From an uncultured bacterium (lineage in GTDB: Bacteria; Myxococcota_A; Polyangia; Polyangiales; Houyiibacteriaceae), in NCBI GenBank assembly GCA_938024995.1, contig CALJDU010000033.1, positions 62,001 through 126,000 on the forward strand: 64,000 bases of DNA. The letters run 5' to 3'. Made by a program: the position numbers and the translations under genes. Below the pieces are notes generated by a model, which saw only the letters and a program-made list of their open reading frames with translations, had not been told where the DNA came from and did no database searches. Below, piece after piece: positions 9,212 to 34,548 of the stretch (the first letter of the stretch is position 1; each line of letters begins with the position of its first letter).

Positions 9212-9228
9212 TCCGAGCGCTCGGATCA
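9209..9228. terminator. Perfect 20-bp palindrome spanning both stop codons of convergent genes
   Basis: TGATCCGAGC is followed by its exact complement. The first three bases are the TGA stop of the plus-strand lipoprotein and the last three are the TGA stop of the minus-strand RCC1 lipoprotein, so the arrangement is symmetric. As RNA it forms the same hairpin from either side. No T-run follows. Confidence 0.55.
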
Positions 9229-11061
9229 GTCGCAAGTACCGGCGTCACAGGTGCCAGAGAGACAGTTGGTCGGGTGAATGCAGTGCTCTCCCCGTTCCGC
9301 GAACGCGAACGGCACGGGCACATCGCCGGGCTCGTTGCCAACGGTGTCGCTCCCGACCGTGCCCCAGCAAACCACGTCCCCATCGCTCAGCTGCGCGCAC
9401 GGCCGCTCCGACGCGGACCCAAGGTAAATCCGCGACACGATGCCCAAGGGAAGCGCCCCGATCGCGCCTACTTCCCCGGGTTCGTCACCCACGTCTTGGC
9501 TGCTCTGAGAACCTAGGGCGCCCGCGGCGCCTTCGCCCCAGCAGCGGACGCCGCCGCCGACATCGATCGCGCAGCTAGAGCGGGCGCCCGCGAAGACCGC
9601 GGTGGCACCGGTAAAACTGATCGCGTCGAGGGTCCCCGGCGTCTCGTCGTCTCCCACGTCCAGGAGGTCCCCGGTCCCGAGTCGCCCGTTCGCTCCGCTC
9701 CCCCAGCAGCGAATATCCCGTCCGACCAGCGCACAGGTGTGGGCTCCGCCGACCGCGAGCGCGTCCACGTCGAGCCCGCCGAGCGAGACGACCGGGGCGA
9801 GCGCCAGAGACTCATCGTCGCCGATGCTGTCCACGCGACCAAAGCCGAGTCGACCGTTCGCGCCCTCTCCCCAGCACAGCACCCGAGCGTCAGCCAAGAG
9901 CGCGCAGGTGTGCGCGTCGCCCGCCGCGATATCGACGACCTCTTGAGCGATCGCGAGCGCGTCGCTGCGAGGCGTCTCGTCATCGCCAATGTTGTCCGTC
10001 GTCCCGTAGCCGAGCTGCCCGCTCTCGTTCGCGCCCCAACAGCGCACGACGCCGCCGCGAGAGAGCGCGCAGGTGTGGTTTCGACCGGCCGCGATCTTCA
10101 GCACCGCGCGACCCACTTCGACCGGCACATGCGGCTCGTCGATCGCGACGAAGGGCACCTCCCGTCCGAGCCCGAGCTGACCGAACGTGTTGTCGCCCCA
10201 GCATCGCACCTGACCATCGGAGAGCAGGCAGGCATGAGCGTCACCGCTCGTGATCTGCTCTCCGACCTCGCCTGCTGGCGTCGTGAAGGAGCCCTCGAGG
10301 CCATCGTCTCCAAAGCACCGAACAACGTCCTGAGACAAAGAGCAGATGTGCCCGCTGCCACCAGACATCATGCGCACGCGACACTTCCCCTCCTCGCCGC
10401 AGTAGCGGATCTCGAAGCCATACGCTCTTCCGTCGCACCGGGTCTGAGGCTCCATGTTTCCGTACACGCACTCGCCCTCGACGCAGAGATCGAGCGTGCA
10501 GACATTGTCGTCAGCGCAGTCGTCAGCGTCAGCACAAGGGGGAACCGGCGTGACTCCGCTGTCGGAAAAACGCTCGCGCGCGACGTCGGGGGAAACCGTG
10601 GCGACCTCGGCGCTCCCGCAAGCGCCGTCGACGCATGTTTCTCTCGCCAGACACGTCACGTCCCCACAAGCGTCTTCGAAGACGATCGCGACTGCGCGCT
10701 GTTCGCCCTCTACGAAATCGAAAATGGCGCGCTTCACGATCTGCACCCCGCGATCCGTGGTCGCGGTCACCTGAAGAAGCACGCGGCGCGATGCGTCGCC
10801 TCCGTCGGGCGTGATCGCGAAAGAGAGCGGAAGCGTATGTTCGCCCGACCGGATGTCCTCGGCCGAGGGAACGATCCGGTAGACCTCATCGGGCGGCGGC
10901 GGCGGCTCGTCGGGCAACGGAGTCGCTTCGCGAACGGACACCGCAATGCGCTCGATGACGAAGATCCCTTCCGCGTCGAGAACGACCAAAACCTGCGTGG
11001 GTGTTTTCCCACAGCTCACGACCAAGAGAAGAAGGAGCGAAGCCCACATTTGTCGGCGCAT
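9226..11061 (-). CDS. RCC1-repeat lipoprotein of kinase cassette 1
   Basis: About 611 aa, lipoprotein signal LLLLLVVSC. Residues about 20-170 form an N-terminal domain that is also present in the cassette 2 lipoprotein (16727-18535). Shared points are TQVLV/SRVLV after the lipid Cys, LPLSF, FVEGEQRA/FVPGEDRA, a C-x3-C...TC..G.C cluster, and ARER. A Cys-rich hinge follows (CADADDCADDNVC), then about seven RCC1-type blades (AGRNHTCALSRGGVVRCWGANESGQLG and similar) that should fold as a beta-propeller, and a final CIHPTNCLSGTCDAGTC. The ATG at 11061 has GGGAG nine bases upstream; a GTG at 11067 overlaps the PEGA gene stop. The propeller probably binds a partner outside the cell; this is inferred. 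Confidence 0.82.
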   Translation of the reverse strand: MRRQMWASLLLLLVVSCGKTPTQVLVVLDAEGIFVIERIAVSVREATPLPDEPPPPPDEVYRIVPSAEDIRSGEHTLPLSFAITPDGGDASRRVLLQVTATTDRGVQIVKRAIFDFVEGEQRAVAIVFEDACGDVTCLARETCVDGACGSAEVATVSPDVARERFSDSGVTPVPPCADADDCADDNVCTLDLCVEGECVYGNMEPQTRCDGRAYGFEIRYCGEEGKCRVRMMSGGSGHICSLSQDVVRCFGDDGLEGSFTTPAGEVGEQITSGDAHACLLSDGQVRCWGDNTFGQLGLGREVPFVAIDEPHVPVEVGRAVLKIAAGRNHTCALSRGGVVRCWGANESGQLGYGTTDNIGDDETPRSDALAIAQEVVDIAAGDAHTCALLADARVLCWGEGANGRLGFGRVDSIGDDESLALAPVVSLGGLDVDALAVGGAHTCALVGRDIRCWGSGANGRLGTGDLLDVGDDETPGTLDAISFTGATAVFAGARSSCAIDVGGGVRCWGEGAAGALGSQSSQDVGDEPGEVGAIGALPLGIVSRIYLGSASERPCAQLSDGDVVCWGTVGSDTVGNEPGDVPVPFAFAERGEHCIHPTNCLSGTCDAGTCD

Positions 11062-11063
11062 GA

Positions 11064-11966
11064 TCACCAGCTCCCTAGCGCCGCGAAAACGTCACCGGTG
11101 GTGCCGCCATCGACCGGATTGTCTCGGGTCGCCAAGATGCCCACGCTGATCGCGGCGCCCGCGGCGACGACGCCGACGACCGCCCACAAGATCGGGCTCT
11201 GGTAGGCGCGCCGCGGCGCTTCGACCTGGGTAAAGGTCGCGTCCACGGTCATTCGCGCGCCCGGCTCGACGTCGATGGTGCGCGTGTAGTCATCGTGTCC
11301 TTCTGCGTGGACCCGGATCACGTGCTCTCCCGCCGCTACCTCGACCTGCGCTTCACCGCGCCCCACCTCTTCGCCATCGACGGTGATCTGGCTACTCGGG
11401 ATCCCGGTACGAATGACGACGCTCGCGTCTAGCGGCTCGAGCCACACCGCGAGGGACGCTTCCCCGCCCACGCCGACGACTGTCTCTCGCTTGGTCGCGA
11501 AACCTTCCGCTCGAACGAGGATCGTGTGGTCGCCCGGATCGAGATAGAGCACTCGCGTGCCCCCCGTTCCGCCTTCCGCGACGCCGTCCACTTCGACGGT
11601 GGCGGAAGACGGCTCAACAGACATCGTGAGCTGGGTCAGCGTCTCGAGAAGCACCGTTCGCCGCGCGAGGGCGGTCGCGCGATCCGCCGCGTCGTTTTCC
11701 TCATTGGAGATCGCCATGAAGCGTTCGAGCGCGTCCATCGCCTCACGCGAGCGACCGAGGGCAGCGAGCGTCTCCATGATGTTGAAGACGATCACGGGGC
11801 GCTCCTCAAACTCTCGAGCGCGCTGAAAATGCCGGAGCGCTTCAGCGCGTCGACCTTCCGCCGTCAGCTCCATGCCGCGCTGAAACTCTTCCCGCGCGGA
11901 CTGCGCGAAGGCGGTTTCAGGAACGAAAAGCAAGAAGAGAGCGGCGCCCACAAGAAGCGTCTTCAT
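11064..11966 (-). CDS. Exported TPR/PEGA protein of kinase cassette 1
   Basis: 300 aa. Signal peptide ending AFA before QSAREEF. Residues about 23-110 are TPR-like (LTAEGRRAEALRHFQRAREFEERP, then ETLAALGRSREAMDALERF). Residues about 115-245 hold two PEGA-type beta repeats (ATVEVDGV..., SQITVDGEEVGRGEAQVEVAAGEHVIRV). A membrane segment (SPILWAVVGVVAAGAAISVGI) is followed by a short tail ending TTGDVFAALGSW. The same layout and tail occur in the cassette 2 homologue. The start at 11966 was chosen for the signal peptide. The gene lies 61 bases behind the kinase and its stop overlaps the next reading frame, so the three genes are probably one operon. Confidence 0.82.
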   Translation of the reverse strand: MKTLLVGAALFLLFVPETAFAQSAREEFQRGMELTAEGRRAEALRHFQRAREFEERPVIVFNIMETLAALGRSREAMDALERFMAISNEENDAADRATALARRTVLLETLTQLTMSVEPSSATVEVDGVAEGGTGGTRVLYLDPGDHTILVRAEGFATKRETVVGVGGEASLAVWLEPLDASVVIRTGIPSSQITVDGEEVGRGEAQVEVAAGEHVIRVHAEGHDDYTRTIDVEPGARMTVDATFTQVEAPRRAYQSPILWAVVGVVAAGAAISVGILATRDNPVDGGTTGDVFAALGSW

Positions 11967-12027: not shown

Positions 12028-13641
12028 CTAACGCCACTCGGAGACGGTCCCGATCGATCGTGGTCGTTCATCCGTCATCGCAGGCTCGGGGGACGCGGCC
12101 TCCATGCGGGCGGACCTTCTTCGAGCGCGTCGACGGCGCCTGCGTTCTTCGGGGGCCTCGTCCGCGGACGCCGTATCCTCATTTTGACGCGCGCCTTCCT
12201 CGGTCGCTTCGGCTTCCTCGGTCGCGTCGGCAACCGTCTCGCTCGCAACCGCCTCGGTCGCGACCTCCTCAGCATCGGCTCGCTGCTCCCCGGGAGCGAT
12301 CGCGCGGGTCGGGGTTACGCCTTCCGACACGCCTTCCGCTGCGTCTTCCGCTGGACCTTCTGGCGCGCCAGCTGCGGCGCCTTCAGCCCGAGCATTGCCG
12401 ATCGGCGCGGCAACATCTTCTGCGCTGGGCCCCGGCGACCCAAGAAGGAACCCGATCGCCGCGACGACCAGCACCGAGAGAACCGCGAACACCGCAAACC
12501 AAAGACCACGCCGCGGAGAACGCACCGGCTGAATCATCATGTCGCTGGTCCGCGCGGAGGTGCTCTCGTGAAGGACACTCTCATCACCGTCGTGATGGCT
12601 CGCGCGATGGACACCTGGAGGAAGGGACAGCGAGCGCTCAGAGACCGACGCCGCGTTGGGCATCGCGAGAAGCTCCGCGAGCGCCTCTTGCGCGGTGGGG
12701 CGCTCCTCGGCCGACTTCGAAAGCAGCCGCTCGATAAGCGCGGTCAGCGCATCACTGATCTCAAGCTCGGGATCGCGCGCGATCGGGCTCGGCGGCGGCT
12801 CGCTGCAGTGCTGACTGAGGAGCATGATCAGGGTTTCGCCGAGGAACGGCGGGGTCCCGGTGAGCATCTCGAAGAGGATCACGCCCAGCGCGTAGAGGTC
12901 GGCCGGCGCGCCCGCTTTCGCGCCGTTGGCCGCTTCCGGGCTCATGTACTTGGGCGTGCCGATCAGCGCGCCGGTGTTGGTCAGCGAGACCCCGCCCACC
13001 AGGTCGGGTTCCAGCATCTTCGCGATGCCGAAGTCGAGCACCTTGATCGGCTTCCGTTCACCCGCGCACAACATGATGTTGTCTGGCTTGAGGTCACGAT
13101 GAACCACCCCAGCGGAGTGCGCGGCGACCAACGCGGTCGCGATCTCCGTCGCGATCCGGATGCACTCTTTGCCCGTGAGCCGACCTCTCGCGAGCACCTC
13201 CCCTAAGGTCTCTCCGTCGATGAGCTCCATCGCGGTGTAGATCAGATCCTGCGCGCGACCGAAGCCGTACATCTTGACGATGTGCGGGCTCTCGATGCGA
13301 TGGGTCGCTTCGGCTTCGCGCCGGAACCGCGCGACAGCCGTCGGGCTCTCGTCGAGCCCCTTCATCAGGACTTTGATCGCCACATCGCGGTTCATGTCGA
13401 CTTGACGCGCGAGGTAGACCACGCCCATGCCGCCGCGCCCGAGCTCCGACTTGATCTCGTAACGGTCGATCACGGTCCCGATGAGCGGATCGATCGGTGG
13501 CTCGGGGAGGTCTGGCAACGAGCTTCGCCGCTGGACTCGCGACGGTTCTTCGCGCGTGTCGACTTGGCTCTGACGAGGAACGCTGAGCTTGTCGTGGCCG
13601 GCCACTGATGGACTGTAAGGGGGCGACTCAAAGTCCAGCAA
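12028..13641 (-). CDS. Transmembrane Ser/Thr protein kinase of cassette 1
   Basis: 537 aa. Kinase domain at about residues 60-330 with all key residues: GRGGMG loop, K90 (VAIK), HRDLKPDN with D183, DFG with D203, and GTPKYMSPE, so it should be active. One membrane segment lies at about 379-401. The outer part is Ala/Glu-rich, carries an unusual Arg run (EERRRRRRARRRSAR), and ends SIGTVSEWR. The cassette 2 kinase ends FGSIVEWR, so this tail is conserved while the linker is not. First gene of the operon with the TPR/PEGA protein and the RCC1 lipoprotein. Likely role: phosphorylating cytoplasmic targets in response to an envelope cue. Confidence 0.92.
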   Translation of the reverse strand: MLDFESPPYSPSVAGHDKLSVPRQSQVDTREEPSRVQRRSSLPDLPEPPIDPLIGTVIDRYEIKSELGRGGMGVVYLARQVDMNRDVAIKVLMKGLDESPTAVARFRREAEATHRIESPHIVKMYGFGRAQDLIYTAMELIDGETLGEVLARGRLTGKECIRIATEIATALVAAHSAGVVHRDLKPDNIMLCAGERKPIKVLDFGIAKMLEPDLVGGVSLTNTGALIGTPKYMSPEAANGAKAGAPADLYALGVILFEMLTGTPPFLGETLIMLLSQHCSEPPPSPIARDPELEISDALTALIERLLSKSAEERPTAQEALAELLAMPNAASVSERSLSLPPGVHRASHHDGDESVLHESTSARTSDMMIQPVRSPRRGLWFAVFAVLSVLVVAAIGFLLGSPGPSAEDVAAPIGNARAEGAAAGAPEGPAEDAAEGVSEGVTPTRAIAPGEQRADAEEVATEAVASETVADATEEAEATEEGARQNEDTASADEAPEERRRRRRARRRSARMEAASPEPAMTDERPRSIGTVSEWR

Positions 13642-13762
13642 CCCGACGAACGCGAATTCAACATCGAGCTAGCGCGAACGGCGATGAACAAAACCAAACG
13701 GAGACCGCGTCTCCTCTGCTCGGGTGAGACATACGCGTCGCGGCGGCGTGGAGACGCGATCG

Positions 13763-14140
13763 TCAGAACAACGAGAGCTGCGCTTCGTGTTGGCGAAGGT
13801 ATCTGACGAGCGCGAGTTCGAGCTCTTCGAGGTGCGCCGCCCACTCATCGAGGTCCGCGTTGTCGACGTCCCGGAGCGCGGTCGCCAGACGGTCTGCGGT
13901 ACGCGGCGCCCCCACTGCTCGGAGCGCGGCGATATGCTCGTCTCCTCGCTCGACCAGCTCTTCCGGACCGTCGTTGTTCATCGCGATGTCCGCGCTCATC
14001 GCGAGCCACAAAGTCTCGACGACCGCCGGGAACCTCTCCCCCGCGCGGTCGCGATCGTTGAGCTCCTCGAAGACCTCCATGAGCCCTTCCACGACGTCGC
14101 CGCTCTGCTCCATCTGGGCCATGATCGCTTTGATGTTCAT
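13763..14140 (-). CDS. Small acidic protein, weak DMP19/DUF4375-like pattern
   Basis: 125 aa from the ATG at 14140, which has GGAG six bases upstream; a longer frame to 14209 would overlap the kinase tail. The protein is helical, acidic and soluble (MNIKAIMAQMEQSGDVVEG, LWLAMSADIAMNNDGPEELVERG, HIAALRAVGAPRTADRLATAL). The order of an N-x-D/G segment followed by ALRxxGAxxTAxxL recalls the DUF4375/DMP19 family, but the match is loose. It follows the cassette 2 kinase with a 59-base gap on the same strand and may be co-transcribed with it. Function unknown. Confidence 0.6.
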   Translation of the reverse strand: MNIKAIMAQMEQSGDVVEGLMEVFEELNDRDRAGERFPAVVETLWLAMSADIAMNNDGPEELVERGDEHIAALRAVGAPRTADRLATALRDVDNADLDEWAAHLEELELALVRYLRQHEAQLSLF

Positions 14141-14199
14141 CTCCGACTCCAATTCCGAGACCCGAAACAACGTCTTCAAACAGATCGCTGCTCTGGCGG

Positions 14200-15711
14200 C
14201 TAGCGCCATTCAACGATCGAGCCGAACGCACGTTCCGACATCGTCGCGGACATCGTCACGGCCTCGGACATCGTTGCGGACATCGTCGCGGCCTCGGACA
14301 TCGTCACAGACATCGTCGCAGCTTCGGACACTGGCGCGTCTTCGGACACCGTCGCGTCTTCGGACACCGTCGCGGCTGCGGAGCGCCTCACGCGTGCCGT
14401 TCGCTTGCTCCGCCGCATCGCGGCCGTAGGGGCGTCGCCTTCTTCCGCGGACGCTTCTTCTGATGGCTCCGCTTGGGGTCGCTCCGCTCGTGACGGCGCC
14501 GCAAGGTCATTCGCGCCGTTCGCTTCTGCTGGCTCTGCGGACGCAGGTTCCAGGGCGACCTCTTGCTCCCCGCCGATCGGAGCCGGCTCATTCAGAACGG
14601 TGTCCGATGACGTATCGGTCGCGTTCGTCATGAACATGAGCGCCGCGATGGCGGAGAGGACCATCAACATGATCGCGGCGGTGATCCACTTACGCGAGGA
14701 CGAAGGGCTTGGGGGGCTCGGGACCACGTCCACCGTCGTCGTCGCGGTGGACGCCGACGGGTCGGTTTCGGGCGACGCACGGAAGCGTGATGACTCCACC
14801 ACCGTGTCGATCTCGTGCATGAAGTCTTCGCCGGTCTCGTACCGAACCGCCATCGGTCCCGGGTCCGCCATGATCGCGCGGAGCGACGTGAGCACATCCG
14901 CCGCGCTCGGGCGCGCCGTGGACGTCTTTCGCAACATGCTCAACACCAGCTCGTCCATCGCGCTCGGGATCGGCTGGCGCGCTCGCGCGGACACCCGCGC
15001 AGGCGGCTCGCTCATGTGACGGGTCAAGACCTCAAGCGTATTTGCACCGTCGAAGAGCAGCGTTCCGGTGAGCATCTCGAAAATCGTGATCCCCAACGCG
15101 TAGACGTCCGCGGGAGGTCCAACCTTTTCTCCGGTCGCCGCTTCGGGGCTCATGTAGTGCGGGGTCCCCATGATCATGCCGGTCTTGGTCAGCTTGGCGT
15201 CGACGCTCTGATCCACCTCGACCAGTTTCGCGATGCCGAAGTCGAGGACTTTGACCTGGTCGCCTTTTTCGGTGCAGAGCATGACGTTGTCTGGCTTGAG
15301 ATCACGATGGACCACGCCACCACGATGCGCCGCCGCGATCGCGTCCGTCATCTGCACCGCGACGCGCAGCCCGTCATCGAAAGAAAGCGCGCCATCGTCG
15401 AGGCGCTCGCGAAGGGTCTCGCCATGGACGCGCTCCATCGCGGCATAGAAGAGGCCGTCGGCGGTCTGCCCGAAGTCATACATCTTGATGACGAAATCGT
15501 TCTCGACGCGGCTCGCGGCTTCGGCTTCACGGCGAAAGCGCTCAGTGAGCCGCGGATTGAGCGCGAGCTCGGGTCGCAGCACCTTGATCGCGACCTCCCG
15601 CTTCATGAAGGTGTGCCACGCGAGGTACACCTTCCCCATCGCGCCTTCCCCTAGAACGTCGCGGATCTCGAACTTCCCCTCGAGGGTCGTTTGAAGAAGT
15701 GGATCGCTCAC
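14200..15711 (-). CDS. Transmembrane Ser/Thr protein kinase of cassette 2
   Basis: 503 aa. Kinase domain at about residues 14-285: GEGAMG, K43 (VAIK), HRDLKPDN with D137, DFG with D157, GTPHYMSPE. Single membrane segment at about 342-362. The outer region contains APIGG (cassette 1 has APIGN), a basic patch (RRSKRTARVRRS), a Thr/Ser/Met/Glu tandem repeat, and the tail FGSIVEWR shared with the cassette 1 kinase. Unlike cassettes 1 and 3, this kinase is transcribed away from its PEGA and lipoprotein partners, from an 87-base divergent gap (15712-15798) in which no clear promoter can be named. Confidence 0.92.
   Translation of the reverse strand: MSDPLLQTTLEGKFEIRDVLGEGAMGKVYLAWHTFMKREVAIKVLRPELALNPRLTERFRREAEAASRVENDFVIKMYDFGQTADGLFYAAMERVHGETLRERLDDGALSFDDGLRVAVQMTDAIAAAHRGGVVHRDLKPDNVMLCTEKGDQVKVLDFGIAKLVEVDQSVDAKLTKTGMIMGTPHYMSPEAATGEKVGPPADVYALGITIFEMLTGTLLFDGANTLEVLTRHMSEPPARVSARARQPIPSAMDELVLSMLRKTSTARPSAADVLTSLRAIMADPGPMAVRYETGEDFMHEIDTVVESSRFRASPETDPSASTATTTVDVVPSPPSPSSSRKWITAAIMLMVLSAIAALMFMTNATDTSSDTVLNEPAPIGGEQEVALEPASAEPAEANGANDLAAPSRAERPQAEPSEEASAEEGDAPTAAMRRSKRTARVRRSAAATVSEDATVSEDAPVSEAATMSVTMSEAATMSATMSEAVTMSATMSERAFGSIVEWR
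14236..14372 (-). repeat. In-frame 30-bp and 18-bp tandem repeats in kinase tail
   Basis: About three 30-bp units (encoding TMSxTMSEAx) and shorter 18-bp units (TVSEDA) sit just before the last ten codons of the cassette 2 kinase. All unit lengths are multiples of three, so copy-number change would alter tail length without a frameshift. Confidence 0.8.
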
Positions 15712-15798: not shown

Positions 15799-16737
15799 AT
15801 GCATCCTCTCCGGGTGAAACCGCTCCCTGCCCTGTCCGCGGTCTGCCTCGCGACGCTTCTGCTCTTCGCGTTGGTTCCGGTGGAGGTCCATGCACAAACC
15901 GCGCGGAGCGAGTTTGAAGAGGCGGCCCGGCTGACTCGCGAAGGACGTCGAGCGGAGGCGCTGACGCATTTTCAGCGCTCCCGGGAACTGGAGGAGCGAC
16001 CCGTTACGGTCTTCAACATCATGGAGACGCTCGCGGCGCTCGGCCGGTCGCGCGAAGCGATGATTGAGCTCGAGCGCTTCCTCGAGATCGCCGACGCGGA
16101 AGAGTTCGCGGCCGAGCGCGCGACCGCGGAGTCGCGGCGGTTGGTCCTGCTTGAGACCCTCGTGCACATCACGCTGGAGATCGAGCCGGCAGACGCGACC
16201 CTCTCGGTGGATGGCGAGGTCGTCTCGGGCACCGGTCGCGCGCGGACCTTCTACCTCGACCCAGGCGCGCACTCTTTAAGGGTCAGCGCGGAAGGTTACG
16301 CGGAGGTGACGCGAGAGCTCGCGGCGGATGAGAACGACCTGGCCATCGCGTTGACCGCGCTGCCGACCACTTTGGTCTTGCGGAGCGCGCTCCCTGACGC
16401 GGAGATACAGGTCGACGGCGAAGTGGTGGGACGCGGGAGCGCCGAGCTGACCGTTCCTGCGGGGGAGCATCTCGTCCGTGTCACCGCGCCGGCGCGAGAG
16501 ACGTTTCAGCGAAGCGTCACGACCAGCCCTGGAGAACGACTCGTGATTGACGCGACGCTGCCGAGCATCACGCAGCCTGCACAAGCGCGACCGCTGTGGA
16601 AGAGCCCGATCCTGTGGACGGTGGTCGGCGTGGTCGTGGTCGGGAGCGTCGCGACCGGCGTGTATTTTGGGACGCGCGGACCACCTCCGCTGCAAGGCAC
16701 CACCGGTGTCACCTTGGGAGCGCTCCATGCATTTTAG
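15799..16737 (+). CDS. Exported TPR/PEGA protein of kinase cassette 2
   Basis: 312 aa and clearly paralogous to the cassette 1 protein. Signal peptide ending VHA before QTARSEF; TPR-like helices (LTREGRRAEALTHFQRSRELEERP, ETLAALGRSREAMIELERF); two PEGA-type repeats (ATLSVDGEVVSGTG, AEIQVDGEVVGRGSAELTVPAGEHLVRV); a membrane segment (SPILWTVVGVVVVGSVATGV); and tail GTTGVTLGALHAF. The last 11 bases overlap the start of the following lipoprotein gene. A cleaved signal plus one C-terminal membrane helix puts the PEGA repeats in the periplasm and a tail of roughly 20 residues in the cytoplasm; this topology is inferred. Confidence 0.82.
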   Translation: MHPLRVKPLPALSAVCLATLLLFALVPVEVHAQTARSEFEEAARLTREGRRAEALTHFQRSRELEERPVTVFNIMETLAALGRSREAMIELERFLEIADAEEFAAERATAESRRLVLLETLVHITLEIEPADATLSVDGEVVSGTGRARTFYLDPGAHSLRVSAEGYAEVTRELAADENDLAIALTALPTTLVLRSALPDAEIQVDGEVVGRGSAELTVPAGEHLVRVTAPARETFQRSVTTSPGERLVIDATLPSITQPAQARPLWKSPILWTVVGVVVVGSVATGVYFGTRGPPPLQGTTGVTLGALHAF

Positions 16738-18535
16738 GTTTCGGTCCCTCGCGGCGCTCTTCCTGCTCATGTCGCTCACGAGCTGCAGCGACGAGGTGTC
16801 GCGCGTGTTGGTCTACGTCACCGCCGACGCCGAGGTCTCACCTGCACTTGAGACCGTAGAGGTCGCGGTCTTGCGCGATGGCGAAGCGCGCAGCGGACAG
16901 CGTTTCGAGATCGTCCAGGAAGACGACGAGGCGCCGCCCGACCGCGTCGCGCTCCCGCTCTCCTTCGTGCTCGAAGCCGACGACCCCGGCTCCTATGCGG
17001 TCACCGTCAGCGTGGTCGGGCTCACCGCGAGCGGGAGCGTTCAGCGCGACGCCACGCTCACCTTCGTCCCCGGCGAAGACCGCGCGGCAATCGTCCTGCT
17101 GACTGGAGACTGCCTCGACATCGCGTGCGAAGACGGTCTCACCTGCGCGAACGGCGACTGCGTCGGGGCGACCAGCGCGACCGTCGATCTCGCGACCGCG
17201 CGCGAACGCGTTCAGCAGTCCGACTGCGGCAATGGGTTGGTCGAGCTGACCGAGGGATGCGACGACGGCAATGCGGACGCGGCCGACGGTTGTGACGCCT
17301 GCATCATCGAGGAGGGCTACGCGTGCACCGGCGGACCATCGGTCTGCGGGCCGATCTGCGGCGACGGACGCCGGATCGACGGCGAGGAAGGCTGCGACGA
17401 CGGAAACCTGATGCCTGGGGATGGCTGCAGCGCGGACTGCACCGTCGAGGCTGGCTGGGGATGCGATGGGGAGACCTGCCTGCCGGTCTGCGGCGACGGG
17501 AACGTGACGGGCGACGAAGAGTGCGACGACGGCAACGACACCGCCGGCGACGGATGCCTCTCGTGCGTGACCGAAGAAGGGTTCATCTGTAACGAGAGCG
17601 GATGCCGACCCAACTGCGGAGATGGCGCGGTGGTGGTCACGGAAGAGTGCGACGACGGCAACGAAGACGAAGGTGACGGCTGCGATTCAGCGTGTCGCCT
17701 CGAACCTGGGTTCTTCTGCAGCGTCCCGGGCGAGCGGTGTGAACCTGATTGCGGCGATGGGAACATCATCGGCGACGAAGAGTGCGATGACGGGAACACG
17801 ATGAGCGGTGATGGCTGCTCCGCGAGCTGTGTCTCCGAGCCGGGATGGTACTGCGACTCGGGTCCATGCGTCACGCGATGCGGTGATGGAGTCGTCGCCG
17901 GCGAAGAAGTGTGCGACGAGGGCACAGCCGGGAACCCGATGTTCCCAGGCTGCGACCGAATGTGCACCGTGATTGTGTTCGGTTTTACCTGCGACGTTCC
18001 GGGAGAGGCCTGCCGCGGCACCTGCGGAGACGGCGTCTTGATCCCGCCCGAGGAGTGCGATGATGGAAACGCGATCGCCGGTGATGGCTGCACCGATACG
18101 TGCGCACTGGAGGATGGCTGGCACTGCCCTGGCGCAGGCGGAATGGCGTGCTCGTTCTGCAGCGACGGCGTGACCGGCGGGCGAGAGACATGTGACGATG
18201 GGAACCTGACCCCGGGCGATGGCTGCGACGCGATGTGTTCGATCGAGCCGGACTCGCGCTGCCCAGAAGCCGGCGGTGAGTGCAGTGTGTGTGGCGACGG
18301 CGTCGTCGGGTTCGGAGAGGAATGCGAGGTCGGTGGCTTCGTTATGGAAGACACGTGTATGAACTGCCTCATCACCCTCTCATGTTTGCCCGACGCGGCG
18401 TGTTGCGGCGACGGTGTCATCGGCGATGGCGAGGCGTGTGACGATCGGAACGTCTCGGCCGGCGATGGATGCTTCGGGTGCGCGGTCGAGGTCGGCTACC
18501 GCTGCATCGGCGAGCCCTCCATCTGCACGATGTAG
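16727..18535 (+). CDS. DUF4215 cysteine-rich lipoprotein of kinase cassette 2
   Basis: 602 aa, lipoprotein signal LFLLMSLTSC. Residues about 18-170 are the same N-terminal domain as in the cassette 1 RCC1 lipoprotein (see 9226-11061). Ten disulfide-rich repeats follow, each with the core CGDGxxxxxEECDDGNxxxGDGCxxxC, the DUF4215 or myxobacterial cysteine-rich repeat. Two repeats deviate: CGDGVVAGEEVCDEG and CGDGVVGFGEECEVG lack the DDGN core. The start has GGGAG upstream and overlaps the PEGA gene. Likely an outer-surface rod or binding array; the binding target is unknown. Confidence 0.85.
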   Translation: MHFRFRSLAALFLLMSLTSCSDEVSRVLVYVTADAEVSPALETVEVAVLRDGEARSGQRFEIVQEDDEAPPDRVALPLSFVLEADDPGSYAVTVSVVGLTASGSVQRDATLTFVPGEDRAAIVLLTGDCLDIACEDGLTCANGDCVGATSATVDLATARERVQQSDCGNGLVELTEGCDDGNADAADGCDACIIEEGYACTGGPSVCGPICGDGRRIDGEEGCDDGNLMPGDGCSADCTVEAGWGCDGETCLPVCGDGNVTGDEECDDGNDTAGDGCLSCVTEEGFICNESGCRPNCGDGAVVVTEECDDGNEDEGDGCDSACRLEPGFFCSVPGERCEPDCGDGNIIGDEECDDGNTMSGDGCSASCVSEPGWYCDSGPCVTRCGDGVVAGEEVCDEGTAGNPMFPGCDRMCTVIVFGFTCDVPGEACRGTCGDGVLIPPEECDDGNAIAGDGCTDTCALEDGWHCPGAGGMACSFCSDGVTGGRETCDDGNLTPGDGCDAMCSIEPDSRCPEAGGECSVCGDGVVGFGEECEVGGFVMEDTCMNCLITLSCLPDAACCGDGVIGDGEACDDRNVSAGDGCFGCAVEVGYRCIGEPSICTM

Positions 18536-31790: not shown

Positions 31791-31837
31791 CTCATGAACC
31801 AACGAACCTGCGCGATCGCTTATCGAGAGAGACATTG

Positions 31838-33550
31838 ATGGACCACGCTACGAGCACCGCTGACACCGTGAGACCGGCCCAGCCCGGGCAAGAGGTCCCG
31901 CTCGTCGGACGCGTGCTCGAGGGGAAGTACAAAGTCATCCGCAAGATCGGCGAAGGCGGGATGGGCGCGGTCTACGAAGGTGAGCGCACCGTCATCGGCC
32001 GGCGCGTCGCGATCAAGACGCTCCACGCGCAGATGTCGAAAGACGCGCGAACCGTCGCGCGCTTCATCAACGAGGCCAAAGCGGCCAACAAGATCCTTCA
32101 CCCAAACATCATCGAGGTCTACGACTTCGGCCAGGTCGAAGACGGCAGCCTCTATCTCGTCCTCGAGTTTCTCGAAGGACACGACCTGGCGGACCTCGTT
32201 GAGAAAGAGGGCACGCTACCGCTCAAGCGCGCGGTCCACATTCTGGAACAGATGTGCGACGCGCTCTCGGTCGCGCACAAAGCCGGCATCGTCCACCGCG
32301 ACATCAAACCGGACAACGTGTTCTTGGTGGAACACGGCGGCGACCGCGACTTCGTGAAGCTGCTCGACTTCGGGATCTCGAAGATCAAACCCGAGCACAC
32401 GATCGACAACCTGACGCGTACCGGGGACGTCTTCGGCACGCCGTACTACATGGCGCCAGAGCAGGCGAAGGGACACCGCGCGATCGACGCGCGCGCGGAC
32501 ATCTACGCGCTCGGCGTCGTGCTCTTCAACATGGTCACCGGCCAGTACCCCGTGAACGGCGAGACCCTGCCGCAGCTCCTGCTGAACCTGATGACGGAGC
32601 CCCCGACCAACCTCTCGACCCTGCGACCCGACCTCCCCCGCGCGGTCGTGCGTCTGGTAGAGCGGATGCTCGCGAAGGACCCCGACGCGCGCCCCGCGAC
32701 CTGCGAGGAGATCAAAGCAGAGCTCAAGAAGATCCCGATTCAAGACGGTCCCACCGCGCCTCGACACACGGTGAGCGGGTACCCGATGCGGACGGATCAC
32801 AAGAGCGGCGTGACGATGCTTGAGGCGCCCAAACGCGCCGCAGAGTCCGAGGCGCCCGCGCTCCCGACGCGATCCCGCAAAGGTCTCATCGCAGCGGCGC
32901 TCGCGGGAGTGGCCGCGCTCGCCGTTGGCGGCGCGTTCCTCTTCTCGCAGGAGTCCGGCGAGCCGGCCGTCGTCGCGACGCCGTCCACGAACGTACACGC
33001 CCCCGACGACTGCAGCGGCCCAATGGTCGACGTCTACTTCGAGGCCGCGGGCGCGACGATCACCGTGGATGGACAACCTGTCACCAGCGGCGGGACCCAC
33101 GCCTTCCCCAGGTGCACCCAAGAGCGCGTCGTGATCGCGCGAGCGGACGACGGGAGCACGCGGCAGCTCCGCTCGGTCTTCAACGAAGACGCGCCTCGGG
33201 TGGTCTTCCCTGCCCTCCCCGAGCCCCCGACCGCCGTCGCGACCCCCGAGGAAGCGGAGCCGGAAGAGGTCGACAACTCGCGTGAGGCGCGACGGGAACG
33301 ACGCCGCGAGCGACGTCGTCGTGAACGCGAAGAAGCGACCGCGATGGCCGTGAGCCGCAGCGTTCCGGCACCAGTCGCGATGACAACCGTGATGACGCCG
33401 AGGCAAGCCGTCGCGCCGCAAACGGTGACGCCGATGGAAGCCGCTCCCGCCCCTCGCGAGGTCGTGCGCGTCGTCGAGGTGCAGCGAAGCCCTCCGCCCC
33501 GCTCCTCGATCACCGGCACCCAACGCTCGAACACGATGAGCCCCTTCTGA
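31838..33550 (+). CDS. Transmembrane Ser/Thr protein kinase of cassette 3
   Basis: 570 aa. Kinase domain at about 31-300: GEGGMG, K60 (VAIK), HRDIKPDN with D155, DFG with D178, GTPYYMAPEQ. One membrane segment at about 349-370. Unlike the other two kinases, the outer part has a folded-looking module at about 388-450 with two Cys (DDCSGPMVDVYF, ATITVDGQPVTSGG, FPRCTQER) that resembles a single PEGA repeat. A highly charged Arg/Glu helix (EARRERRRERRRREREE) and Pro-rich tail follow. The stop and the next start share one base (TGATG). Activation by envelope signals is inferred. Confidence 0.92.
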   Translation: MDHATSTADTVRPAQPGQEVPLVGRVLEGKYKVIRKIGEGGMGAVYEGERTVIGRRVAIKTLHAQMSKDARTVARFINEAKAANKILHPNIIEVYDFGQVEDGSLYLVLEFLEGHDLADLVEKEGTLPLKRAVHILEQMCDALSVAHKAGIVHRDIKPDNVFLVEHGGDRDFVKLLDFGISKIKPEHTIDNLTRTGDVFGTPYYMAPEQAKGHRAIDARADIYALGVVLFNMVTGQYPVNGETLPQLLLNLMTEPPTNLSTLRPDLPRAVVRLVERMLAKDPDARPATCEEIKAELKKIPIQDGPTAPRHTVSGYPMRTDHKSGVTMLEAPKRAAESEAPALPTRSRKGLIAAALAGVAALAVGGAFLFSQESGEPAVVATPSTNVHAPDDCSGPMVDVYFEAAGATITVDGQPVTSGGTHAFPRCTQERVVIARADDGSTRQLRSVFNEDAPRVVFPALPEPPTAVATPEEAEPEEVDNSREARRERRRERRRREREEATAMAVSRSVPAPVAMTTVMTPRQAVAPQTVTPMEAAPAPREVVRVVEVQRSPPPRSSITGTQRSNTMSPF

Positions 33551-34544
33551 TGATTCTCCGACACCTCCCACCCGTCATTTTCGGTGCGGCCTTTTTCGTC
33601 TCGTCGGTCGCGAGCGCGCAGGCGATCCCGGTTCAAACCGCGCCTGCTCCCCAAGCCACACCGCGACCGACCGCCCCGGCTGCGCAACCGGCCGCGCAAC
33701 CCGCGCCGACGGAGCAGGAGCTCGCCGCGCGCGAGCGGTTCCAGAGCGGAGAGCTCCTCTTCGAGAACGGAAACTTCGACGCCGCGCTCGCCGAGTACCA
33801 AGCCGTCTACGATCTCCTCGAAGGACACCCTCGTCGCTACAACGTCCTCTTCAACATTGGTCTCTGCAACGAGCGCCTCTTCCGCTACGACCGCGCGATC
33901 GAGTTCTATCAGCGCTACCTCGACGAAGGCGGCGCCGATGCCGAAGATCGCGCGACTGTCGAGGCGTCGATCCGAACGCTCCATGGCTTGCTCGGGACGG
34001 TCACCATCCGCTCCAACGTGAGCGCCTCTGTGTGGGCTGGCGATCGAGAGATCGGGCGCGCCCCCGGCGAGGTCATGCTCCCGGCCGGGACGCACGCGCT
34101 CTCGATGCGCGCAGACGGTTACGAAGAAGCGCGGGTCGAGGTGCAGGTCACTCCACGCGCCAACGAAACGGTCAGCGTCACGCTCGACGAGGTCTTCGAC
34201 GGGATCTCTCCAGCAGGCTTTGGCATCACGCTCTCGCTAGCGCTGGTCGCGGCTGGGGTCGGGGGCTACTTCGCGTGGGACGCCTACCAGCTCAACCAAG
34301 ACGCAGAGATGCGCGTCCCAGGTGACCCCACGGTGGAGCTTGACCGCGACGCGATCCGAGATCGCGCCCTGCTCGCGGACGTCTTCTTCGGCGTCGCGGG
34401 ACTCTTCGCGGTCACCGCGATCATCCTCCTCCCGTTCACGCGTTTTGGTGGCGGAGATGAAGATGAACCCGAGACGCGAGACTCGTTCGCGCTGACGCCT
34501 ACCTTCGGCCCGAACTCGGTCGGGATGAGCCTGCGAGGGACGCT

Positions 34545-34548
<4 letters not shown>
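33550..34548 (+). CDS. Exported TPR/PEGA protein of kinase cassette 3
   Basis: 332 aa. Signal peptide ending ASA before QAIP, then a Pro/Ala/Gln linker, TPR-like helices (ERFQSGELLFENGNFDAALAEYQAVY, FRYDRAIEFYQRYL) and one PEGA-type repeat (VWAGDREIGRAPGEVMLPAGTHALSMRADGY). Two membrane segments follow (ITLSLALVAAGVGGYFAW and ADVFFGVAGLFAVTAIILL), one more than in cassettes 1 and 2, so its C-tail should face the periplasm. It overlaps the kinase by one base and the next lipoprotein by four (GTGA), which indicates tight co-translation. Confidence 0.8.

Follow-up and report, generated by a model that had tools for sequence, protein, structure and literature searches.

In a window of 64,000 nucleotides (G000:C33:62001-126000) from a 6.79 Mb draft myxobacterial genome, two membrane-spanning Ser/Thr kinases, K1 and K2, end in SIGTVSEWR and AFGSIVEWR, and each adjoins a gene for a protein with tetratricopeptide repeats (TPR) and PEGA domains (P1 and P2). 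A C-terminal aromatic, often acidic-aromatic, peptide is a robust feature of kinases beside such TPR-PEGA genes in Polyangiales, is apparently previously undescribed, and is very probably a selected functional peptide. Our preferred reading, for which we claim modest confidence, is that this tail would be a periplasmic C-terminal short linear motif and the ligand of the TPR groove of the partner protein. The kinase sets of myxobacteria are among the largest in bacteria (128 kinase matches in this genome, over 150 in two relatives). A readable C-terminal tag, if true, would allow kinases and partners to be matched by sequence, would offer a simple peptide-binding test and would reveal how a large number of similar kinases are kept apart within one envelope. 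Among openly licensed papers, none was found on TPR-PEGA partners or on terminal aromatic tails of such kinases.

Terminal peptides of kinases beside TPR-PEGA genes

The kinases and their partners were annotated as follows (window positions):

12028..13641, minus strand: K1, Hanks-type Ser/Thr kinase with one transmembrane (TM) helix, ending SIGTVSEWR (open reading frame, ORF; Pfam Pkinase E=2.7e-53)
12676..13461, minus strand: K1 kinase domain, residues 61-322 (Pfam, sequence)
12439..12507, minus strand: K1 predicted TM helix, residues 379-401 (hydropathy, sequence)
12058..12438, minus strand: K1 periplasmic low-complexity linker (putative location), Ala/Glu-rich, then Arg-rich (sequence)
12028..12057, minus strand: K1 C-terminal tail SIGTVSEWR, peptide sequence DERPRSIGTVSEWR, and stop codon (sequence)
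14200..15711, minus strand: K2, Ser/Thr kinase paralogous to K1 and its best paralog, one TM helix, ending AFGSIVEWR (ORF; Pfam Pkinase E=3.1e-47)
14887..15669, minus strand: K2 kinase domain, residues 15-275 (Pfam, sequence)
14623..14688, minus strand: K2 predicted TM helix, residues 342-363 (hydropathy, sequence)
14230..14622, minus strand: K2 periplasmic linker (putative location), Thr/Met/Ser/Glu repeats towards its end (sequence)
14200..14229, minus strand: K2 C-terminal tail AFGSIVEWR and stop codon (sequence)
11067..11966, minus strand: P1, partner with signal peptide, two TPRs, capping helix, two PEGA domains, TM helix and short GTTG tail (Pfam PEGA E=2.3e-18; AlphaFold2 model)
11640..11897, minus strand: P1 two-TPR domain and capping helix, residues 24-109, proposed tail receptor (model helices; Tah1 match)
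15799..16737, plus strand: P2, TPR-PEGA partner of K2, divergently transcribed, 49% identical to P1 (Pfam PEGA E=9.4e-15)

HRDLKPDN and DFG motifs are present in K1 and K2, which identifies both as Hanks-type kinases, and a hydropathy scan placed a single TM helix between the kinase domain and the extracytoplasmic part, followed by an arm of low complexity, about 130-140 residues long. Given a cytoplasmic kinase domain, arm and tail would be periplasmic. The ORFs confirm the -EWR end that the original prediction had noticed on both proteins, while its description of the outer linkers as unrelated went too far: they do differ, but show about 35% alignable identity and have an API-G motif after the TM helix and an Arg-rich patch in common. 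The tail codons differ (GAG TGG CGT TAG in K1, GAA TGG CGC TAG in K2), which places the conservation at the protein level.

A set of 70 distinct bitopic kinases adjoining a TPR-PEGA gene, mostly from Polyangiales, was drawn from all kinases of the same genome and from the regions around TPR-PEGA genes of relatives, and was compared with 82 bitopic kinases without such a neighbour (same genome and two relatives). Aromatic residues make up 43% at position -1 and 19% at -2 of the paired kinases, while each site between -12 and -40 averages about 0.4%. In 43/70 kinases, at least one of the two final residues is Trp, Tyr or Phe, whereas 2000 shuffles with residues drawn from the same arms averaged 2.6 such kinases and never exceeded 9; 30 tails end exactly in an aromatic. 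The same tally was lower in the comparison set (21/82, p=1.5e-5), so that an enrichment beside PEGA genes, as had been suggested, was found for the terminal aromatic; the acidic-aromatic pattern [E/D][W/F/Y] in the last five residues was likewise more frequent in paired kinases (27/70 vs. 4/82, p=3.4e-7). For the literal -EWR no such enrichment exists, as it is restricted to K1 and K2 (2/70), and it was rejected as a general mark of these cassettes.

The tails fall into several groups (-VTEW/-REW/-EWR, -DYP, -[N/D/S]P[Y/F/W], -MTEFE, and others), and leucine-ended tails such as -DPTHL accompany Polyangiaceae-type partners. Eight orthologous kinases of genus g11 have PPDLVTEW or a close variant (PPELVTEW, PPELITEW) at their C terminus, with a pairwise identity of about 0.9 in the last 8 residues vs. 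about 0.2 in the preceding linker. Tails are also kept between genera in a kinase group without a TPR-PEGA neighbour (LNGYKAEPY/LMGYKAEPY) and in one ending GSLSVDDF/GTLSVDEF, whose member in the studied genome has a TPR-PEGA gene nearby. A nucleotide-level signal, such as a ribosome-binding site serving the PEGA gene that follows, was considered and rejected, because the tail is present whatever the gene order (in 43/55 kinases upstream of the partner gene, 7/9 divergent and 5/5 downstream) and the codons differ. A scan of named genome contigs with P1 and P2 gave no matches; with the g11 partners it gave nine loci, in uncultured Myxococcales/Polyangiaceae and related bins.

The third cassette, previously thought to lack the tail, belongs to the same phenomenon, since its kinase ends in a peptide of the [N/D/S]-P-[F/Y/W] subclass:

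31835..33550, plus strand: K3, kinase of cassette 3, ending RSNTMSPF, an S-P-F type tail (sequence, Pfam)
33550..34548, plus strand: P3, TPR-PEGA partner of K3 (Pfam PEGA and TPR)

The PEGA-like module reported in K3 corresponds to a short beta-rich, putatively periplasmic stretch (VDVYFEAAGATITVDGQPV...) that does resemble PEGA, but to which Pfam gives no score.

Tail similarity and the partner's TPR domain

The AlphaFold2 model of P1 (mean predicted local distance difference test, pLDDT, of 92.4) contains helices at residues 17-36, 40-53, 57-69, 73-86, and 93-109, i.e., two TPRs and a capping helix, followed by a PEGA part of two sandwiches and, after the TM helix, a short, disordered end. 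These helices and a superposition on Tah1 agree with the two to three TPRs that form a peptide groove. Pfam recognised PEGA in P1 and P2 and scored TPR in P3 only; profile searches with the partner matched many TPR proteins, including STI1/Hop, SGTA, and Tah1.

Tail similarity correlated with similarity of the partner's TPR domain (0.25), less so with that of its PEGA part (0.15) and hardly at all with that of the kinase's own catalytic domain (0.08). With kinase and PEGA accounted for, the partial correlation between tail and TPR was 0.203 (p=0.002-0.003), and 0.137 after dereplication (p=0.003-0.004). Neither the partial correlation of the tail with PEGA given TPR (0.036-0.046, p=0.13-0.18) nor that with the kinase domain was significant, and 8-residue segments located 8 to 28 residues upstream of the tail had no comparable correlation with TPR (largest 0.088). 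The tail thus varies with the partner's TPR domain, making this domain, and not PEGA, the most likely contact. The idea of a contact site for the PEGA protein is thereby partly supported, in a broader form, by aromatic enrichment and by a tail that follows the TPR domain.

Within the TPR domain, the concave Asn62 is kept in 68/70 partners, and residue 35 is the column that best separates Trp tails, with a small side chain in 23/26 Trp pairs vs. 6/44 others (p=4.6e-10; next-best column p=1.5e-5). Residue 35 is at TPR position 12, which generally lines the groove and contacts the ligand. On the kinase tree, contrasts at this residue were 6 as expected and 1 opposite (p=0.06).

Several observations weigh against the TPR groove as the reader of the tail. 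On the partner tree, all eight independent contrasts between Trp and non-Trp tails were ties at residue 35, so that the size match is confounded with lineage and was downgraded as independent evidence; Mantel-type tests on related sequences overstate significance, and lineage confounding of the link between tail and TPR remains. A structure prediction of tail and partner, for which the in-frame stop between the kinase and the TPR-PEGA gene at a relative's locus (L178) was read through to give a tethered AlphaFold2 model, left the tail undocked (pLDDT <50), in a test of low power given the signal peptide in between and the few alignment rows with tails. Furthermore, 14/70 paired kinases have no aromatic in the last five residues, and 14/46 non-paired bitopic kinases of the studied genome end aromatic (last three residues). 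No TPR genes were found in a search near these non-paired, aromatic-tailed kinases, which implies that some partners are unlinked or that the tail has another reader.

A kinase ending LGMDIDLSYP (C41:114960, locus L111) lies apart from any TPR gene, and a TPR-PEGA protein ending LEGRLPTV... (C98:10880, locus L086) belongs to a type that, in relatives, is paired with kinases ending -DLDYP; located on different contigs, the two are a possible unlinked cognate pair.

Alternative readings and proposed mechanism

Such unpaired aromatic tails, by both the count in the comparison set and that in the studied genome, favour a general periplasmic reader in place of the TPR-PEGA partner (peptidoglycan, the outer membrane, the BAM machinery, a DegS/Tsp-type protease or a PDZ protein), as do the 30 tails that end exactly in an aromatic like the C termini of outer-membrane proteins. 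K1 and K2, however, both end in Arg and so lack that outer-membrane signal. The enrichment beside TPR-PEGA genes and the variation of tail type between cassettes in step with the partner TPR also speak against a general receptor, for which cassette-specific tails are not needed, and we regard this explanation as unlikely. The tail could instead bind a different component of its cassette, namely a PEGA domain, the lipoprotein or a second copy of the kinase. The partner does have two PEGA domains, the K1 and K2 cassettes each have a lipoprotein gene, and chains of the RtkS-PpkA complex (PDB 9k1u) are also matched by the P1 model; RtkS acts as a regulator in the periplasm and binds the periplasmic domain of a kinase (PMC6082577). 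The non-significant association of tail and PEGA once TPR is accounted for speaks against the PEGA domains, and we regard this reading as quite improbable.

K1 and K2 are reciprocal best paralogs among the 128 kinase matches of the genome (51% identity in the catalytic domain), and P1 and P2 are reciprocal best matches too (49-51% identity). Cassettes 1 and 2 are therefore a duplication, and both copies inherited -EWR, with no independent recurrence. Two unrelated proteins of this composition would have the same last three residues in about 4 in 10,000 cases, a figure of little use for two proteins that share ancestry; the informative test is the set of 70 kinases. That the match reflects nothing but this descent, the tail being without specific function, agrees with the reciprocal best pairs and with the confinement of -EWR to K1 and K2, but is very unlikely given the strong position-specific conservation of tails across many orthologous groups: the nearly invariant g11 tails beside fast-changing linkers, the terminal aromatics of dozens of other cassettes and the differing K1/K2 codons argue for selection on the peptide.

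Under the TPR-groove reading, a cytoplasmic catalytic domain and one TM helix would be followed by a disordered arm in the periplasm, roughly 80-230 residues long, acting as a tether whose sequence is of little importance and ending in the conserved aromatic, often acidic-aromatic peptide. This peptide would be recognised in the periplasm by the concave two-TPR groove of the cognate, usually gene-neighbouring TPR-PEGA protein, itself presumably anchored in the inner membrane through one TM helix, and might serve as a specificity tag that holds each of many paralogous kinases to its own partner. Binding may then couple the partner's envelope-side state to kinase dimerisation/assembly or activity. 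Of the candidate receptors, the TPR domain is somewhat favoured by these data.

A G-[S/T]-T-G peptide after the partner's TM helix (P1 11067-11108; P2, end at 16737) is conserved in partners of Trp-tailed kinases, with such an end in 19 of the 25 pairs whose kinase has Trp among its last four residues vs. 2/45 others; expected to be cytoplasmic, it may act as a substrate of the kinase or as a docking site. Lipoprotein-like genes continue the two cassettes at 9226-11067 and 16727-18535, with similar N-terminal regions but different C-terminal parts, one having RCC1 repeats and the other Cys-rich repeats of the DUF4215/myxo_disulf_rpt type. Between K1 and K2, a 148-aa ORF (13763-14209, minus strand; likely start at MNIKAIMAQMEQ) looks like a real gene.

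Comparison with known systems

K1 and K2 resemble PASTA kinases (PknB/Stk1) in their bitopic Hanks-type architecture, and NF033483 is their best NCBIfam match, but the scores (290.8 and 294.8 bits) lie below the 450-bit cut-off, which separates them from that family. Pfam found no PASTA repeats in either protein, and their ectodomain is a disordered arm instead. PpkA, too, is a Ser/Thr kinase that spans the membrane and is under the control of a partner in the periplasm, RtkS (PMC6082577), and it was by Foldseek that P1 was matched to chains of their complex. In Serratia, however, the part of PpkA bound by the partner is a periplasmic domain about 120 residues long, and the available part of that report describes neither an aromatic tail nor a TPR partner.

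Carboxylate-clamp TPR domains of Tah1 and Hop bind the C-terminal MEEVD of Hsp90 (PMC4058522; PDB 4cgu). The TPR part of P1 superposes on the complex of Tah1 with Hsp90 SRMEEVD (4cgu) with a root-mean-square deviation of 1.6 A over 85 columns, and both have two TPRs plus an extra helix and a C-terminal tail peptide as ligand, which for P1 is the putative one. By TPR numbering, Tah1 Asn43 corresponds to the widely kept Asn62 of the partners, but it alone of the clamp set Lys8/Asn12/Asn43 is retained: the Asn12 equivalent is variable, and that of Lys8 is Phe28 in 54/70 partners and Lys in 10/70, mostly with non-aromatic tails (Phe28 with aromatic tails; Lys in 8/14 pairs without an aromatic). 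Unlike EEVD, the kinase tails are aromatic, and their location would be the periplasm.

In ligands of the kinesin-1 type (W-acidic/Y-acidic), a TPR groove reads short Trp/Tyr peptides near acidic residues, including C-terminal ones (JIP1 ...DIYLE), which recalls the kinase tails -VTEW, -VSEWR, and -IREYE. The acidic-aromatic pattern occurs in the 27 tails counted above, the others being N/D-P-aromatic or basic-flanked. The comparison is one of motif; the kinesin-1 system is eukaryotic and cytosolic and has a longer TPR array, while the bacterial tails are mixed in charge. We tentatively propose, as a possibility somewhat short of an even chance, that Polyangiales may use a periplasmic peptide code in which each of the numerous paralogous bitopic kinases of a genome carries, at the end of a disordered arm, its own aromatic C-terminal tag, read by the TPR groove of its cognate membrane-anchored TPR-PEGA protein and insulating parallel kinase pathways, analogous in bacteria to W-acidic/Y-acidic TPR recognition.

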